Below are positions 16,462 through 24,055 of a stretch of 35,845 nt of DNA, piece by piece. A program made the translations under genes and the position numbers. The notes beneath the pieces were generated by a model. That model was not told the origin of the DNA. It was given only the letters and a program-made list of their open reading frames with translations, and searched no databases. The stretch's first letter is position 1. Every line of letters begins with the position of its first letter. Source of the stretch: Flavobacteriaceae bacterium (GTDB lineage: Bacteria; Bacteroidota; Bacteroidia; Flavobacteriales; Flavobacteriaceae); the NCBI GenBank assembly GCA_027080135.1, contig JALWUJ010000165.1, forward strand, positions 1 through 35,845, read 5' to 3'.

Positions 16462-16469
16462 TAACTTTG
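16462..16469 (+). promoter_or_regulatory. Candidate -7 box for the small secreted-protein gene
   Basis: TAACTTTG matches the Bacteroidota -7 consensus and ends 21 bases before the preferred ATG at 16491, leaving a leader of roughly 15 bases. The TTG inside the box (16467) is therefore promoter sequence rather than a start codon. No clear -33 element is seen. Confidence 0.4.
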
Positions 16470-16490
16470 AAGAAATTATTATACCATCTT

Positions 16491-16991
16491 ATGAAAAAAC
16501 TACGATTATTATTTGTTGCTGTTTTGTTATCAACTATTTCTGTTCAAGCACAAGAATGGAAAACTTTTACTTCGGAAAAAGGAAATTATTCTATTGAATA
16601 TTTGGGTGACATATCTAAAGAATATATTTCAGATTCTGAAAAGGTAAGAAGTTACAAAGTGAATATATCTAACGTTCCCATGGCTTATTTAATAAGTGCT
16701 ACAAAACATAATGTTAATTTAGAAGATAATATTGATTTGCTTTTAGATACTTCTTTAAATGCTTTTAACGAAGCAATTAAAGGAACAATTAAAGAAACCA
16801 AAGAGCTAGATAGAAACGGTATTAAAGGTGTTTATGCTTTAATTACGATGAATGATGATACGATAAAATTTGAATATTACCTTTATATGAAAGGGATGTA
16901 TCAATATCAATTAGTATTTTATGCTGAAACGGCTACCTATAATCAAGAGGAGGCGAATCTCTTAATTGCTTCTTTTAAAATGTTGGAGTAA
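16491..16991 (+). CDS. Small secreted protein of unknown function
   Basis: A 166-residue protein with a signal peptide MKKLRLLFVAVLLSTISVQA, cleaved before QEW. The mature part is a single domain of about 145 residues with alternating strands (EWKTFTSEKGNYSIEYLG, KVRSYKVNISNVPMAYLISA) and ends SFKMLE. The overall pattern recalls PsbP-like small exported domains, but I do not recognise the family. The frame extends upstream to a TTG at 16467, which falls inside the -7 box; the ATG at 16491 gives a canonical signal peptide and is chosen. The stop is 4 bases from the end of the convergent barrel gene, with no terminator between them. Confidence 0.75.
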   Translation: MKKLRLLFVAVLLSTISVQAQEWKTFTSEKGNYSIEYLGDISKEYISDSEKVRSYKVNISNVPMAYLISATKHNVNLEDNIDLLLDTSLNAFNEAIKGTIKETKELDRNGIKGVYALITMNDDTIKFEYYLYMKGMYQYQLVFYAETATYNQEEANLLIASFKMLE

Positions 16992-16995
16992 TATT

Positions 16996-18420
16996 TTAAG
17001 GAGTTATAATTTTAGGGTCAATATTATATTTCTTAAAAGTTTTTTCCATAAATAAAATTTCTACTCCAACAAGAAACCTCCATCGATTCACTTTAACTTT
17101 TGCAGTGTCAAAATCATCTATTTCGTCTGGTTTAATAGGGTTGTTCAAAGGCCTAATAATTTCGGAACTACCACTAGAATAAACAGTTCCTAAAATAAAA
17201 TTTGCCCATTTGGTACTCATATTAACCCCAATGCCATAATGAGAATAATCGGTTTCAAAATTAATATTTTCACTAGACTGGTTAATGGCATCAAAAACGG
17301 AAGCACTTTGTTTATACGGTGAATAATCTGTGGAAAAACTTCCATAAACATTAAATTTTTCAGAAATAAATATTTCGGCACCCAATCCAAAATTAAAAGT
17401 GGAACGCAATTCTTCATTAAAAAAGATGACGGGGACATCGTCTCCAGTTTCACTTTCTAATGTAGGTACATCTAGTTTGTTATAATCACCTACGGGAGCA
17501 TTCCAACTTATGTTGGCGTGTAAGGTATGTTTTTTGTAGGGTATTCCTGTTCCAACAGAGATTCCTAAGGGATATTTTCGTTTCGCTTTGACATCATCAA
17601 AATTATTGTAGGTAAAAATATCGTCGTTGGTAGAACCTGTTAAATATTCTTCATAACTAAAACTTCCTTCGCTATAAACCTCGAGATAGGGGAGGTCTAT
17701 ATTAACTCCAAAATCGATATTTGAATACACCCAAGAAACGGCAATTTTTGTAAAAACACCATACGATTTTTGACGAAAAGTAACAGAATTATTATACAAA
17801 GCAACATTATCATCAACGTCTATAGTTGAAAAATTCTGGGTGTTATTTCCATCAAACCGGTAATCTGAATAAAATACAGAAGCTCCAATACTAAAATTTT
17901 TGGACAATGATTTAGCCCAAGAAATTCCAAACCAATTTTCTCGTAAATTATTATTAAAATTTATATTACCTACATATTTATCGATGTTGGGGAGATCATC
18001 TATAATTTCGTCTGTTATTAAACCGGTGTTATATCCTATATTAAGTCTTGTTCTGTTTCTTGAAATGATGGAATAAGCAAATTGGTGACCTTCTAAAAAT
18101 TTTAATTTGAAAGTTCCAGCTAACATACTAGGAATACCATCAAATTGCGATTCGGAAATATTTTCTCCATTTATTAAAACATTATCAATTTTTATATTAC
18201 TTAACTGATACATTTTTGCATTTAATGAAAAAACAGGGTCTTCAACCAAGGCAAGACGAGCAGGATTGTAATAGGTAGCTCCTAAATCATCCACACTACC
18301 AGTTACATTTCCGTTTAATAATATAGAACGATTCCCGAAATTCTCGAATTTATAATTTCGTTGAGCTTGTATATGGTTTAAAAAACCAATAAGAATTATA
18401 ATAACAATAGTAGGTTTCAA
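16996..18420 (-). CDS. FadL/OMPP1-like outer-membrane beta-barrel protein
   Basis: A 474-residue exported protein with signal peptide MKPTIVIIILIGFLNHIQAQ. The N-terminal region of the mature protein has DLGATYYNPARLALVEDP, similar to the NPA signature of the FadL/OMPP1 group, which forms hydrophobic-ligand channels. Alternating hydrophobic strands follow (NFSIGASVFYSDYRF, FTKIAVSWVYSNIDFGVNID, STFNFGLGAEIFISEKFNVY, WANFILGTVYSSG, WRFLVGVEILF), consistent with a barrel to near the C-terminus. It starts 18 bases after the 434-residue amidohydrolase-like gene on the same strand, so it should be cotranscribed with it. The ligand is unknown; a role in admitting or exporting a product of those enzymes is only inference. 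Confidence 0.75.
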   Translation of the reverse strand: MKPTIVIIILIGFLNHIQAQRNYKFENFGNRSILLNGNVTGSVDDLGATYYNPARLALVEDPVFSLNAKMYQLSNIKIDNVLINGENISESQFDGIPSMLAGTFKLKFLEGHQFAYSIISRNRTRLNIGYNTGLITDEIIDDLPNIDKYVGNINFNNNLRENWFGISWAKSLSKNFSIGASVFYSDYRFDGNNTQNFSTIDVDDNVALYNNSVTFRQKSYGVFTKIAVSWVYSNIDFGVNIDLPYLEVYSEGSFSYEEYLTGSTNDDIFTYNNFDDVKAKRKYPLGISVGTGIPYKKHTLHANISWNAPVGDYNKLDVPTLESETGDDVPVIFFNEELRSTFNFGLGAEIFISEKFNVYGSFSTDYSPYKQSASVFDAINQSSENINFETDYSHYGIGVNMSTKWANFILGTVYSSGSSEIIRPLNNPIKPDEIDDFDTAKVKVNRWRFLVGVEILFMEKTFKKYNIDPKIITP

Positions 18421-18438
18421 AATAAAAAGAGTACGTGG

Positions 18439-19743
18439 TTATTTCTCGCTATATTTTTTCGAATACCGTTTCCAAAGTTCGGTTTGATGGGTTTCAAGAG
18501 AAACATCTCTTCCGTCTATAAATGCGTGAGTTAAAATGTTGGTTCGCATATCTAAGGCATCACCTTCGCTGATAAATAAGGTGGCACTTTTGCCTACTTC
18601 TAAAGTTCCATATTCTGAATCGATACCCAATATTTTGGCTGCATTTAAGGTAATTAATTGCAATGCCACTTCTTTATCCAAGCCTTGTGCTACTACTTCT
18701 CCTGCGTAAAAAGGAAGATTTCGGGTATTCATTGCTTCCATTTGTCCACTGGTTTGTAGAGCGACTAAAACACCATCATCGGTTAATAATTTTGCTAATT
18801 TATAAGGTAAATCGTAATCATCATCATCACTTTCAGGTGTAGTGTGCACTCTTTTAATTAAAACTGAAATATTATTATTTTTTAAGAAACTTGAAATTTT
18901 ATATGCTTCATAAGCACCAATAATGGTAATGTTATTAATTCCTAAATCTTTTAAAATAGTAACTGCATCTATAATTTCTTTTTCTCCATTTGTATAGACA
19001 TACATTCTTTTTTTGCCATTAAAAAGTCCTTGCATGGCTTGGTATGCTTCGTTTTTAGTTTTTGGTGTTTCTTTTCCGTAGGATTTACTGTTTAAAATAA
19101 AACTTTTAATTTCTTCAATTCTTTCCTGATATTTCTCGTTGGGTTTATAAGCAGCCGATTCTCCTAACCACCATTTTCCTTGCGAGTAACTTTCTGGCCA
19201 GTGTAGATGAATTCCGTCATCAACTTTTACAGCAGCATCTTCCCAGTTCCAAGCGTCAAATTGTACGATGGAAGAGGTTCCAGAAATAGTCCCGCCACGA
19301 GGTGTAATTTGCCCAATTAATACTCCGTTAGGTCGCATAGATTCTACAACTTTACTCTCTGCGTTATATGCAATTAAACTTCGCACATTCGGAATCATAT
19401 CTCCCAATTCATCTTGATCTCTTGTAGGTCTAACTGCTTCAATTTCTACCAATCCTAAAGTAGTATTGGGAGCTATAAAACCAGGGTAAATATGTTTTCC
19501 TTTGGCGTTAATTACTTGTCCTTGTTCTTTAACGGAAGTTTTATTTTCTTCTCCAATGGCTGTTATTTTTCCGTTTTCAAAAACGATAACAGAATTTTCA
19601 ATCACAGCTCCATTTCCTAAATGTGCGGTAGCTCCAATAATAGTTATTGTTTCACTCTGAATAGGAGCTGGGGTTTGTTGGGCAATTGATGCTATACCTA
19701 TACAAAGGATTAGTAGGTTTGAAATATTTTTTAATAGTTTCAT
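18439..19743 (-). CDS. Exported amidohydrolase-like protein without the metal-binding HxH
   Basis: A 434-residue protein of the amidohydrolase superfamily (imidazolonepropionase-like branch), with signal peptide MKLLKNISNLLILCIGIASI. The composite-domain edges are typical: GAVIENSVIVFENGKITAIG at the front and LITLNAAKILGIDSEYGTLE with GKSATLFI at the back. The expected D-x-H-x-H after the PGFI turn is replaced by IAPNTT (Asn93 and Thr95 at the two His positions), and the late TSD acid region reads LQTSGQMEA. It is therefore probably not a conventional metal hydrolase. The frame extends to 19788, but the ATG at 19743 gives the clean signal peptide. It lies 90 bases after the larger amidohydrolase gene and 18 before the barrel gene. 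Confidence 0.8.
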   Translation of the reverse strand: MKLLKNISNLLILCIGIASIAQQTPAPIQSETITIIGATAHLGNGAVIENSVIVFENGKITAIGEENKTSVKEQGQVINAKGKHIYPGFIAPNTTLGLVEIEAVRPTRDQDELGDMIPNVRSLIAYNAESKVVESMRPNGVLIGQITPRGGTISGTSSIVQFDAWNWEDAAVKVDDGIHLHWPESYSQGKWWLGESAAYKPNEKYQERIEEIKSFILNSKSYGKETPKTKNEAYQAMQGLFNGKKRMYVYTNGEKEIIDAVTILKDLGINNITIIGAYEAYKISSFLKNNNISVLIKRVHTTPESDDDDYDLPYKLAKLLTDDGVLVALQTSGQMEAMNTRNLPFYAGEVVAQGLDKEVALQLITLNAAKILGIDSEYGTLEVGKSATLFISEGDALDMRTNILTHAFIDGRDVSLETHQTELWKRYSKKYSEK

Positions 19744-19764
19744 AATTTTATTTTTTCTTAATGC

Positions 19765-19792
19765 CTTAATGGTTTTATTTTTTACCATTAAG
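19765..19792. repeat. Hairpin in the leader of the smaller amidohydrolase gene
   Basis: CTTAATGGT (19765-19773) and ACCATTAAG (19784-19792) form a 9-bp stem with a 10-base AT loop, between the two amidohydrolase genes. The CATTAAG motif recurs again next to it (19756-19762 on the minus strand). It could weaken read-through from the large gene to the downstream pair or protect the processed message; no T-tract makes it a standard terminator. Confidence 0.4.
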
Positions 19793-19832
19793 TAATTAAG
19801 TTTTTTATTAGTTTAATTATAAATTAACCTTT

Positions 19833-22793
19833 TTATTCAGATTCGCAGGTATAAACTTTGCGTTTCTTTTTAGTTGGTTTTTTCTTTTTTGAATTGTCTC
19901 CCTTTTCATTTCTCATAAGGTTAATGAGTTTGTTTCGTTCTGCTTTAACAGCTGCTTGTTGTTGTTTATCTTTTTCAATATCAAAATAAACAGCTCCTTC
20001 AATTAAAGTCTTTTCAGCTTTGGCGTAAATGGATAAGGGATTATCAGACCACAAAACCAAATCGGCATCTTTACCTACTTTTATACTACCCACTTTATTA
20101 TCTAAATGAAGTAATTTTGCAGGATTTAAGGTTACCATTTTCCAGGCATCTTCTTCAGACATTCCACCGTATTTCACCGATTTTGCCGCTTCTTGATTCA
20201 ATCTTCTAGACATTTCGGCATCATCGCTATTAATAGCAACCGTGATTCCAACATTGTTCATAATTGTTGCATTATAAGGTATAGCATCGTTTACTTCGTA
20301 TTTATAAGCCCACCAATCACTAAAAGTGGAAGCTCCCACTCCGTGTGCTTTCATTTTATCGGCAACTTTATAACCTTCTAAAATATGAGTAAATGTGTTA
20401 ATTCTGAAACCAAAACGTTCTGCAACTTTCATTAGCATATTGATTTCACTTTGCACGTAGGAGTGACAAGTAATAAATCGCTCTCCGTTTAAAATTTCGA
20501 CCAAAACTTCCATTTCTTGATCGTAACGGAAAGGTTTTCCACTTTTCTTTAATGCTTCATATTCTTGAGCTCTGGTAAAGTAGTTGATATACAATTGCTC
20601 AACGCCCATACGGGTTTGTGGAAACCGATTAAAGCTCTGCCAATTAGACTGTTTTACATTTTCGCCCAAAGCAAATTTTATAAATTTTGGAGCGCCTTTA
20701 TATAAAAGTCCGTTGGCATCTGAACTCCAACGAGGTTTGATAATCGCCGAACGACCACCAATTGGGTTTGCCGAACCGTGCAATAACTGAATGGTTGTAA
20801 CACCGCCCGCAAGATTGTAATAAAGGTTGATGTCTTCTGGGTTTAGAGCATCTGCCATACTAACTTCTGCAGACGAATTTTGACCGCTTTCATTAACAGA
20901 GGAAAGGGCAATATGCGAATGCTCGTCTATAATTCCGGAAGTTAAATGTTTTCCTGTGGCATCTATTATGGTTGCTTTTCCAGCCGAAATATTTTTACCT
21001 ATTTTTTCAATTTTTCCGTTTTTAACTAGCACATCGGTTTGGGTTAAAATGCCTTCCTCTTCATTGGTCCAAACGGTGGCGTTTTTAAATAGGATGGTTT
21101 CTTGTTTTGGAATTTCAGTAAAACCATAACCCACATTTGGATAAGTAATTGGAACGATTTCTATTGCTTCAGGATTGTTTTTATCTTCAGATTTATCTTC
21201 CTCCTCCTTTTCGTAATCGTTCTTTTTTATAGCTGTAAAAGTAGTTTCTTCTCCGTTGGGCAAAAGCAGTTTTCCTGAAATAATATTGCTGTCTTTTTTA
21301 ATGATTGCAGTACTGTTGTAAACTTCTTTTGTTTCTTCGTTGGTAAATGAAAGTGTGATCCAATTGTCTTTATAAGTAAATTTTGAAGGATATTTTAAAG
21401 TATCCACTTTTACTTCGGATTTAATTTTATCCAATTCTCCTGATAGTACGATTTTATATGTTTTTCCTGAAACAGTTATCGTGTATGTTCCGCGAATATC
21501 TTTAGTGTTTAAAGGGTTTATTACGTTTTTGTTTCCTTGAACCCAGTTTTCATAAAGAGTGGTTTCTTCTTCAAATAATTCACCTGAAGTGATTAAAAAA
21601 TTAGCATAACTTCCCTTTTTTAAACTTCCTATTTTATCACTTTGTCCTAACATTTCAGCAGGAATTGTAGTAAGAGATTCCAAGGCTTTGGTTTTGTCGA
21701 AACCGTATTTAAATGCTCTGTTCAATTTTGATTTAAATTCGGAAGGTTTTTTTAAATCGTGAGTGGTTAAGGCAAATACAATTCCGTTTTCCGATAAAAC
21801 TTTTGGGTTGTTGGGAGCTTGATTCCAATCGCGCATTTCTTCAATCGTTAGATAATTAACTGCGTAAGGGTCGCTTACATCATAGGCTTCAGGGAAATTA
21901 ATAGGAATAATATATTTTGCTTGACTTTCCTTGATACTTTTGATGGCTTCGTATTCATTGCCACCTCCAACAATAATGTAGTTGAGGTTAAATAAATCGC
22001 TAATTTTATCGGCAGAAATATCTTTGTATTTATCGCCAGCATCAATAAACGAGGTTAAATTTTTGTTGGCAATTAAAGCTTCTAATGAAAGGTCTTTTGT
22101 TTTTGAAAGTCCTTTAGCATACCAATTGGCATCATAATTCATCTGTTTCAATAAAGCCACAGAACCCATAAAAGAAGATGGATAAGCCTGTCTGCTAGCT
22201 CTCGATTTTTTAAATGAAAAGTACTGACCCGAAGTATCGTTAATCACTCGTTCTGAATTATTTCCGTCATCGTTTAAAGCAACTAAAACGCCAGTTCCTC
22301 TTGCTATTCCGTCCATAATATGACTATTAACCACACCAAAACCAGCTTCTCGTAATGCTTTGGCGTCTTTGCTTTTATATTCAAATTTATTAATGGCTTT
22401 GTTTTCTGGCATAATATGGTCGTTCCAATAATAACCATCGCGTTTGGTTTCGTATTGCTGCGATCTACTTCTTTCAGCTTTCTCTGGAAGCTCTATACCA
22501 AAATTAGAATAGGAATCGATAAAAGAAGGGTAAATATATTTTTCTTTCAAATCTATAATGATAGAATTTTTAGGAATTGTTACCGATTTTCCTGTTGCCA
22601 CTACTTTTCCATCTTGTATAAGAAGGGTTCCTTTTTTAATAACTTCGGTGGGAGTTACGTAGATTGTTGCGTTTGTAAAGGCTGTGTAATTATGACTTTC
22701 TTGTTTTAATTCGGAATTATTTGGAAAATAATCTTGTGCAATTATGGAAGAAATACTCGCTGAAAACAAGAATAGAAATAGAAGTTTTTTCAT
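19833..22793 (-). CDS. Exported double amidohydrolase: inactive-looking N-terminal half, intact C-terminal half
   Basis: A 986-residue protein with signal peptide MKKLLFLFLFSASISSIIAQ. Residues 35-430 form one amidohydrolase module whose metal-binding site reads FIDSYSN (Tyr95 and Asn97 replace the two His). Residues about 430-540 hold a beta-rich insert ending in a charged stretch. Residues 560-945 form a second module with an intact site: IIDEHSHIAL (His625, His627), Lys706 in KFALGEN, His777 (CHSY), His803 (THILEGY) and Asp857/858 (NSDDAEM). The last ~20 residues are Lys-rich and end CESE. The family hydrolyses C-N bonds in cyclic amides or peptide-like substrates; the substrate here is unknown. 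The other two exported genes follow on the same strand. Confidence 0.88.
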   Translation of the reverse strand: MKKLLFLFLFSASISSIIAQDYFPNNSELKQESHNYTAFTNATIYVTPTEVIKKGTLLIQDGKVVATGKSVTIPKNSIIIDLKEKYIYPSFIDSYSNFGIELPEKAERSRSQQYETKRDGYYWNDHIMPENKAINKFEYKSKDAKALREAGFGVVNSHIMDGIARGTGVLVALNDDGNNSERVINDTSGQYFSFKKSRASRQAYPSSFMGSVALLKQMNYDANWYAKGLSKTKDLSLEALIANKNLTSFIDAGDKYKDISADKISDLFNLNYIIVGGGNEYEAIKSIKESQAKYIIPINFPEAYDVSDPYAVNYLTIEEMRDWNQAPNNPKVLSENGIVFALTTHDLKKPSEFKSKLNRAFKYGFDKTKALESLTTIPAEMLGQSDKIGSLKKGSYANFLITSGELFEEETTLYENWVQGNKNVINPLNTKDIRGTYTITVSGKTYKIVLSGELDKIKSEVKVDTLKYPSKFTYKDNWITLSFTNEETKEVYNSTAIIKKDSNIISGKLLLPNGEETTFTAIKKNDYEKEEEDKSEDKNNPEAIEIVPITYPNVGYGFTEIPKQETILFKNATVWTNEEEGILTQTDVLVKNGKIEKIGKNISAGKATIIDATGKHLTSGIIDEHSHIALSSVNESGQNSSAEVSMADALNPEDINLYYNLAGGVTTIQLLHGSANPIGGRSAIIKPRWSSDANGLLYKGAPKFIKFALGENVKQSNWQSFNRFPQTRMGVEQLYINYFTRAQEYEALKKSGKPFRYDQEMEVLVEILNGERFITCHSYVQSEINMLMKVAERFGFRINTFTHILEGYKVADKMKAHGVGASTFSDWWAYKYEVNDAIPYNATIMNNVGITVAINSDDAEMSRRLNQEAAKSVKYGGMSEEDAWKMVTLNPAKLLHLDNKVGSIKVGKDADLVLWSDNPLSIYAKAEKTLIEGAVYFDIEKDKQQQAAVKAERNKLINLMRNEKGDNSKKKKPTKKKRKVYTCESE

Positions 22794-22987: not shown

Positions 22988-24055
22988 TTAAAAAGGTTGG
23001 TCTTCGTAATAATTTACAATTAAAGCCACCATATAACTGTAACTTTTAATTCCTTTAGATTGGTTGTTGGATTTTAAAAACAAGTCCCAAAAGGTTTTTG
23101 AAAACACTTCAAAGGGGTTTTCGTAGCTTTTCCAAAAATCCCGCATTTCTTTGTAGCTTTTTAGTATTCCTGGGTTGATGGTTTTTAAAAGTTCGTGATA
23201 AGTATCTAAATCTCTTCGGGCAATTTCGTTTACACAATAGCGAAGTGCAAAAATATAACCTGAGTATTTTATAAAATCATCATCGCTGTTTATAGTTGCT
23301 AAAGCCGCTATAAAGTTAGCTTCGTTTTCGGCTGCATAACCAATTTGGTGTGCTTGCTCATGACAACTCACCACAGGGAATTTATGCAGTTTTATCAAGC
23401 CATTTACCTGTGCTTCTCCAGAAAACGGATTGTAATAACCACTATAACCCATATAAGTTAAGCCCAAACTCCAAGTGCTTTTCTTCAGGCTTAAAACCGA
23501 ATAATCTAAATTGGTATAAATTTTCCCTAAATTATGATAGCCATTTAAAGTCAAATCAAAAATTTGTTGTTGGTCGTAGGGTGAATCTATTTTTACAGAA
23601 TCAGCAAAGCCTAATTTACGATGCATTTCGTTCGATTTTTTAATCAAACGTTTTGTGGTTGCAATGAGTTGCTCGGTAGTGTATTCAGTATTAATTGATA
23701 GTTTTTTATGAAGTGGAATTCGGTAATAATTTAATCCCCACATTAAATTAAAAACCAAGTAAACCAAAGAAAGTGTTGCGATAATTTCTAAAAAGTATTG
23801 AACAAAATCGGTTCTAATTCGTTTTCTGTTTTTAATTAACCATCTAATAGCAAGAATGATTAAAAGCAAGTAAAATATATCTCCTACTGAAAACGGAACC
23901 CATCCAAATATATATCTAAATGTTTTTGATAAAAAAGGAAACAAACCTGTACTATAATAGGTTTCAATAAAATTAGGAAAGTGTTTTAAAATCTGTAAAA
24001 CTAATATCTGAAGTGGGAGTAAGGCAACTAAAAATAGTTTTGTTTTCTTTTGCAT
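22988..24055 (-). CDS. DUF3810 membrane protein with a zincin-like HExxH motif
   Basis: A 355-residue protein of the DUF3810 family. Three hydrophobic segments occupy the N-terminal third (about 7-24, 58-72 and 88-106), and a soluble domain follows. That domain contains HEQAH at 232-236 with Glu residues at 243 and 245 (AENEANF), the layout of a gluzincin active site, and Tyr/Gly-rich GYSGYYNPFSGEAQV just before it. No function is established for the family that I can cite; a membrane-tethered peptidase is the natural hypothesis. It seems to be a single-gene unit: the next minus-strand gene is over 190 bases away. A TAATTTTG box at 24060-24067 lies only 4 bases from the ATG. Confidence 0.85.
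   Translation of the reverse strand: MQKKTKLFLVALLPLQILVLQILKHFPNFIETYYSTGLFPFLSKTFRYIFGWVPFSVGDIFYLLLIILAIRWLIKNRKRIRTDFVQYFLEIIATLSLVYLVFNLMWGLNYYRIPLHKKLSINTEYTTEQLIATTKRLIKKSNEMHRKLGFADSVKIDSPYDQQQIFDLTLNGYHNLGKIYTNLDYSVLSLKKSTWSLGLTYMGYSGYYNPFSGEAQVNGLIKLHKFPVVSCHEQAHQIGYAAENEANFIAALATINSDDDFIKYSGYIFALRYCVNEIARRDLDTYHELLKTINPGILKSYKEMRDFWKSYENPFEVFSKTFWDLFLKSNNQSKGIKSYSYMVALIVNYYEDQPF

Follow-up and report, generated by a model that had tools for sequence, protein, structure and literature searches.

Why would a bacterium keep two amidohydrolase modules devoid of a metal site next to one that has retained it? This question is raised by a locus in the window, i.e., the whole stretch of 35,845 nucleotides analyzed here, whose source genome is a draft assembly of 2.4 Mb in 173 contigs, with a completeness of 81%. 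Its 986-aa gene (open reading frame coordinates 19833-22793, minus strand) encodes an N-terminal amidohydrolase module (N), a small beta domain, and a C-terminal amidohydrolase module (C), and a second gene of 434 aa encodes a separate module (S), whose longest possible frame begins 15 codons upstream and underlies the 449-aa numbering given for some residues below. Pfam finds amidohydrolase matches in both proteins; for N alone, the score is 30.9 bits against a cut-off of 25, and it is this match that assigns N to the amidohydrolases. The all-beta domain between N and C has no Pfam match. A gene for a predicted outer-membrane barrel (474 aa) starts 18 bases past the 434-aa gene, and the coordinates agree with the first-pass annotation of the window in placing all three genes on one strand. 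That annotation also proposed that the two dead domains capture or position a substrate for the live one and that the barrel, taken to be FadL-like, handles a hydrophobic substrate or product. The features are collected in Table 1.

Table 1. Features of the amidohydrolase set and the adjoining barrel gene, in window positions
Feature	Position	Strand	Remarks
N module (residues 36-430 of the 986-aa protein) with a dead amidohydrolase fold	21504..22688	-	Tyr95/Asn97 replace HxH
Signal peptide and Gln20 ahead of the N module	986-aa protein N-terminus	-	
All-beta domain, residues 435-526, between N and C	21216..21491	-	Secondary structure from the AlphaFold2 model (pLDDT about 73-80)
C module, live amidohydrolase, residues 567-938	19980..21095	-	His625, His627, His777, His803, Asp857; conserved Glu711
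C-terminal helix and lysine-rich tail with Cys983, including the stop codon	19833..19979	-	
S, separate dead 434-aa amidohydrolase with signal peptide	18439..19743	-	
Acidic loop of S: Glu100, Asp109, Glu112 (434-aa numbering)	19408..19446	-	Partly below pLDDT 50 in the monomer model
Predicted outer-membrane barrel, judged outside the set	16996..18420	-	Chance neighbor

We verified in the window sequence that C keeps HxH (His625/His627), His777, His803, and Asp857 and that HxH is replaced by Tyr95/Asn97 in N and by Asn93/Thr95 in S, as the first-pass annotation had stated. A joint alignment of 254 modules, drawn from the window, the fetched loci, and four stand-alone relatives, shows that these losses are fixed across homologues. 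All five metal ligands (HxH, His, His, and Asp) are present in 84/86 C modules and 4/4 stand-alone relatives, against 0/80 N and 0/84 S modules, and the two C exceptions (L066 and L120) are broken frames. No ligand at all is left in 64 of the 80 N modules, one is left in 15, and two are left in a single module; for the 84 S modules, the corresponding numbers are 52, 27, and 5. These counts exclude a chance or strain-specific loss of the metal site in N and S. In a separate contig scan by C module, HxH was found in 80/80 C, 0/78 N, and 0/76 S, for a set (the best 80 of 535 confirmed matches) that is skewed towards close relatives. Counts from loci L058-L117 and from loci L145-L224 are not additive as independent observations, because the two sets overlap in species, with L058 and L148 apparently being one contig.

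One N module among the 80 (L143) retains HxH with the other ligands gone, which fits a relic of live-enzyme ancestry. Neither N nor S has a conserved set of histidines. The former metal-ligand positions vary in both modules, which speaks against the retention of an inherited pocket. As judged from their ligand positions, N and S do not qualify as metalloenzymes.

C is a member of the amidohydrolase superfamily, and its nearest relative of solved structure is 3ooq, an amidohydrolase of Thermotoga maritima. The module matches Pfam PF01979 over the cut-off and has the TIM-barrel amidohydrolase fold, and 3ooq is the closest solved structure both by sequence (E = 2.8e-54 for C and 1.4e-26 for S) and by fold (Z = 43.1, rmsd 2.3, and 360 aligned for C; Z = 45.3 and 355 aligned for S). 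The next fold matches fall to Z = 25.5 and 26.1 in the C and S searches, respectively. The NCBIfam matches listed (25 of 58 for the 986-aa protein and 23 of 23 for S) to named amidohydrolase families, such as HutI, dihydroorotase, and NagA, are all below the curated cut-off. Enzymes of the 3ooq type consist of a single live module whose own chain carries a long acidic beta1 loop, whereas the set in the window is composed of N, C, and S. Our literature search found no paper on TM0814 or 3ooq. In two annotated live-dead loci, the genes are named amidohydrolase or amidohydrolase family protein, and fragments are named hypothetical protein.

The spread of the set was followed in 149 genomes of the family and 395 genomes of the phylum. 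S matches occur in 96 of the 149 family genomes, including one fragment. In the phylum sample, S was found in 212 genomes and the 986-aa protein in 214, and all genomes with S are among those 214. For 15 of the 214, the match is a distant one only, and these genomes hold a second live-dead system instead (described below). With these subtracted, S and C occur together in 198 genomes, and one further genome has C without a detected S at a locus that is masked. The set is thus present in 198 or 199 of the 395 Bacteroidota genomes sampled, or about one in two. Among the matches listed, the nearest named contigs by C module belong to Flavobacteriaceae such as Zunongwangia, Formosa, and Cellulophaga. 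Viral contigs scanned with S gave no relative, and a 2523-aa frame in one genome was discarded as an artefact of masked bases.

Linked genes share one strand and are arranged in the order N, C, S. S and C lie at separate places, on another contig or far apart, in at least 24 of the 198 genomes (families f23, f25, f28, f48, and f49), a number that is a lower bound given that not all coordinates are listed and in which different contigs of a draft assembly are no proof of physical distance. Within single contigs, the distance between S and C is about 1.0 Mb (G189) and 1.4 Mb (G205). All of the separated loci that we fetched (seven for C and six for S) sit amid other genes. N and C are themselves separate genes in eight loci (L086, L089, L093, L104, L106, L111, L116, and L117), and the unit is therefore three modules, fused or not. 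Between the window and 13 relatives, identity is about 60% for N, 65% for S, and 78% for C, which indicates that N and S are under constraint and are less conserved than C. The retention of the dead partners in one genome after another makes it likely that N and S are functional subunits and not genes in decay.

The second live-dead system (L235-L250) is found in Bacteroidota genomes without a detected triplet. Its live gene adjoins its dead gene in 15/15 genomes, often with frames overlapping by 4 bases, and the dead gene is cut short in one. All 16 copies of the live gene have the five ligands (16/16); the 15 full copies of the dead gene have the first His in 10 cases and the other four ligands in none. 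On two Sphingomonadales plasmids, too, a live gene precedes a dead one. On the Qipengyuania citrea plasmid, this pair (L118, 3991-8489) comes directly after an oligopeptide:H+ symporter gene. Four more relatives, on Bacillota and Actinomycetota records (L121-L124), are single live genes in which every ligand is present, as is the GEN motif seen in C; no signal peptide is obvious in them by eye, and their loci of roughly 9 kb gave no second amidohydrolase match.

Outgroup-free trees split the dead modules (N, S, Sphingomonadales, and second system) from the live ones, with support of 100/97 for 37 rows and 99/97 for 63 rows. An earlier 65-row tree separated C and the stand-alone relatives from the rest at 100/99 and left the Sphingomonadales dead module loosely placed (90/65). 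With the stand-alone relatives as the root, branching within the dead clade follows the order second system, Sphingomonadales, and then N and S, and the live clade mirrors this order, with the second system followed by Sphingomonadales and then Bacteroidota C. The split between dead and live modules is compatible with one ancient loss of catalysis. The simplest reading of the history, based on the outgroup-free trees and the rooting by stand-alone relatives, is one old duplication and one catalytic loss, after which the dead gene would have been doubled in Bacteroidota and one of the copies fused to C.

Three other histories were compared on the 37-row outgroup-free tree. N as a copy of Bacteroidota C (p = 0.0002) and a private Sphingomonadales duplication (p = 0.00006) were rejected, and a private origin of the second pair was only weakly rejected (p = 0.032), all of these p-values being flattering because the groups were named after the trees had been seen. 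Two points temper the reading of a single ancient loss. A rooting on distant amidohydrolases from the same genome carries little weight either way, with very long outgroup branches, a root support of 56/29, and one outgroup row, L263, that falls among the dead modules (93/98). In addition, the faster-evolving dead rows may attract each other.

In the AlphaFold2 monomer model of the 986-aa chain (mean pLDDT 83.9, pTM 0.80, 34 sequences), N (about 36-430) is followed by the beta domain (435-526), C (567-938), a helix, and a tail, and S is predicted to fold as one amidohydrolase module (pLDDT 85.8, pTM 0.86, 32 sequences). The loop after beta1 of S carries three acids, Glu115, Asp124, and Glu127 (449-aa numbering; the Glu100, Asp109, and Glu112 of Table 1), which are conserved in 98, 100, and 96% of 84 modules, respectively, and are spaced as in the stand-alone enzymes. 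Arg152 (449-aa numbering) is a further conserved polar residue of S. In Bacteroidota C, the loop is eight or nine residues shorter, and the last acid alone is left (Glu635, 97%). The dead chain of the second system retains the Asp and the Glu (14/15 each), and the live chain is shortened. In the Sphingomonadales live module (L118), most of the acidic loop is present. Given that C keeps Glu635 and L118 keeps most of the loop, the exchange of the loop between chains is neither complete nor universal. Three conserved stretches have a pLDDT below 50 in the monomer models (99-109 of S, and 714-727 and 828-832 of C), as would be expected if these loops were ordered on contact only; shallow alignments can also give low pLDDT.

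Altogether, these results suggest that the set forms an exported, metal-dependent amide hydrolase hetero-oligomer, in which C would be the sole catalytic module and N and S would be obligate non-catalytic subunits, and we consider this reading the probable one. It is supported by the ligands being intact in C alone, by the co-retention of S and C even when unlinked, by the second live-dead system and the tree split between dead and live modules, by the loop acids that S keeps where Bacteroidota C is shortened, by the low pLDDT of conserved loops in S and C as monomers, and by the precedent of an inactive subunit in Pseudomonas (PMC7053772, as far as its available text goes). The retention of Glu635 in C and of most of the loop in L118, as well as the lack of a consistent pathway among the neighboring genes, speak against it. 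Mechanistically, the 986-aa chain and S would be in contact: N and C would constitute a built-in pseudo-dimer, S would dock onto it, and the resulting N-C-S assembly would replace the homo-oligomer presumably formed by the stand-alone ancestor. S would then shape or complete the mouth of the C active site, the beta1 acidic loop being its most likely means, and N may support or shape this site as well.

A more specific form of the proposal, which we regard as bolder and less likely than not, is that the dead paralogue completes the active-site mouth in trans. According to it, duplication would have yielded a live chain that kept the metal (its loop being shortened in Bacteroidota) and a dead chain without the metal in which the loop was retained; the two would have stayed together since in Bacteroidota and Sphingomonadales, with a second dead copy later fused to the live one.

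An alternative role for N and S is that of independent binding proteins, in which the old active-site pocket captures a substrate or a signal and delivers it to C. This would suit the retained fold (as seen in the match of S to 3ooq), the constraint on N and S, and the conserved polar residues of S (its three loop acids and Arg152). However, a conserved pocket would show constancy at the former ligand positions, which N and S lack, and the conserved acids of S sit in the loop after beta1, so that we regard this alternative as unlikely. As such, the earlier proposal of substrate-capturing partners survives in part: the partner role is supported by co-retention and by the fixed loss, and capture by the pockets is at odds with the varying metal positions. 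The near-invariance of the three acids in S could also mean that N or S is catalytic after all, through another metal site (for example, at Glu115/Asp124/Glu127) or a metal-free reaction. Yet the same acids occur in stand-alone relatives with a normal metal site, and the acids of S consequently need no new metal; moreover, N and S are without a conserved set of histidines, and catalysis by either of them seems distinctly improbable. The notion that the dead modules are dispensable leftovers in decay could draw on their lower conservation relative to C and on one family genome (G052) that has only an S fragment, with no C in the stretch fetched. It is contradicted by the conservation of the dead modules, by the identical loss across the phylum, and by the co-retention of S and C when unlinked, and it is the reading to which we give the least credence.

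The barrel gene was weighed in the same manner, as a component that handles the substrate or product of the set, and the 18-base spacing on the same strand in the window is what favors this role. The survey of adjacency that bears on this suggestion of the first-pass annotation went against it: the barrel was found near the set in 0/60 and 0/80 fetched loci of about 4-14 kb (the second group being the best 80 of 535 matches). The barrel gene is present in 13 of 149 family genomes, the genome of the window included. Among the 12 others (of 148), it is never adjacent to the set: seven lack an S match, and in the remaining five the barrel is 60 kb or more away from S or on a different contig. The searches did not confirm a likeness to FadL: the barrel has no Pfam match at E <= 0.001, and its best PDB match has E = 0.18. 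The non-conservation of the barrel largely refutes a partnership with the set, and the hypothesis that the barrel handles the substrate or product is to be taken as very improbable. For the dead domains, the fixed HxH losses, the travelling of the dead modules with C, and the exported appearance of both proteins make a partner role the best reading.

The other neighbors of the set vary between families. In many Flavobacteriaceae loci, genes for a DUF3810 protein, a dipeptidase, an RNA methyltransferase, and an M48 peptidase lie near the set, and these genes were not found in the fetched stretches of other families. In the window, the DUF3810 membrane protein (22988-24055) has an HExxH motif by eye and resembles a membrane zinc peptidase. 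A 174-aa exported-looking frame lies on the opposite strand (16467-16991), with 4 bases separating its end from that of the barrel gene; it has no Pfam match and no match in the compared loci.

As a substrate class, a peptide or N-acyl-amino-acid amide bond is our guess, and one that is more apt to be wrong than right. The fold neighbors after 3ooq are peptidases, deacylases, deaminases, and other hydrolases, with Z about 22-26. Among them, the Xaa-Pro and Arg/Lys carboxypeptidases (3mtw, 3be7, and 3n2c) belong to the same superfamily and chemistry class, with Z about 24-25 to C, far below 3ooq. The neighbor scan covered 27 proteins from hand-picked loci, from which no enrichment is claimed and in which no consistent pathway was seen. 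It includes peptide-related genes, namely, an S9-type hydrolase right after S in three loci (L107, L108, and L115) and a gamma-glutamyltranspeptidase gene following S in another (L138), together with GTPases, a sigma factor, AAA proteins, and a terpene-utilisation protein. The best hint of a peptide substrate is the symporter adjacent to the Qipengyuania pair.

Regarding export, a signal peptide followed by Gln was found in 144/148 N and 133/150 S by a loose and uncontrolled pattern. The 986-aa protein and S thus look exported, and this arrangement fits the Q-rule of Bacteroidota, by which signal peptidase I substrates have Gln after the signal peptide (PMC10653852, in the part of the article available). 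Signal peptides had been assigned to all three gene products; those of the 986-aa protein and S are upheld by eye and by this pattern, and that of the barrel by eye only.

Inactive subunits of this kind have precedents. The pseudo-dihydroorotase (pDHO) of Pseudomonas aspartate transcarbamoylase is a cytoplasmic protein. According to the accessible portions of the respective articles, aspartate transcarbamoylase requires this inactive chain of the amidohydrolase family for its activity (PMC7053772), and the trypanosome AdoMetDC prozyme is a dead paralogue that activates its live paralogue (PMC5201418); both dead amidohydrolase subunits and enzyme-prozyme pairs are, to this extent, already known. 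The pDHO resembles N and S in being an inactive amidohydrolase-family chain needed by a partner, but its partner is an unrelated enzyme and not a live paralogue. The AdoMetDC pair has an unrelated fold and is eukaryotic, and activation by the dead chains of the set in the window would be a prediction. The secreted metalloBSH of Bilophila is, by its description, of the same superfamily and chemistry class, and the available part of that article (PMC13081902) mentions no dead partner. In the available parts of two other articles, amidohydrolases are not mentioned (PMC10211241) or the content is irrelevant to a live-dead set (PMC7847538). No paper on a live-dead amidohydrolase set was found in the literature within reach, which leaves out most subscription papers. 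Dead-live pairing within one amidohydrolase subfamily, exported, old, and phylum-wide, appears to be new.

Should the dead modules be obligate, experiments on the live module by itself would be unsuccessful or misleading, and such a need for dead subunits may partly explain why we found no substrate in print. The series that runs from stand-alone enzyme to pair, triplet, and fused or split set offers a test of how an enzyme family comes to need a dead paralogue.

Finally, the 986-aa protein has only two cysteines, Cys776 (20466-20468) beside His777 and Cys983 (19845-19847) at the end of the lysine-rich tail, in a stretch with pLDDT below 50. Of 155 C modules, 121 have both residues, 19 have only the tail Cys, 6 have only Cys776, and 9 have neither, a rough count that includes fragments and scores modules with a missed motif as lacking Cys776. 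By a stricter pattern that missed most rows, both are present in 58 of 71 classified modules. A disulphide between Cys776 and Cys983 is possible and would pin the tail over the active site.
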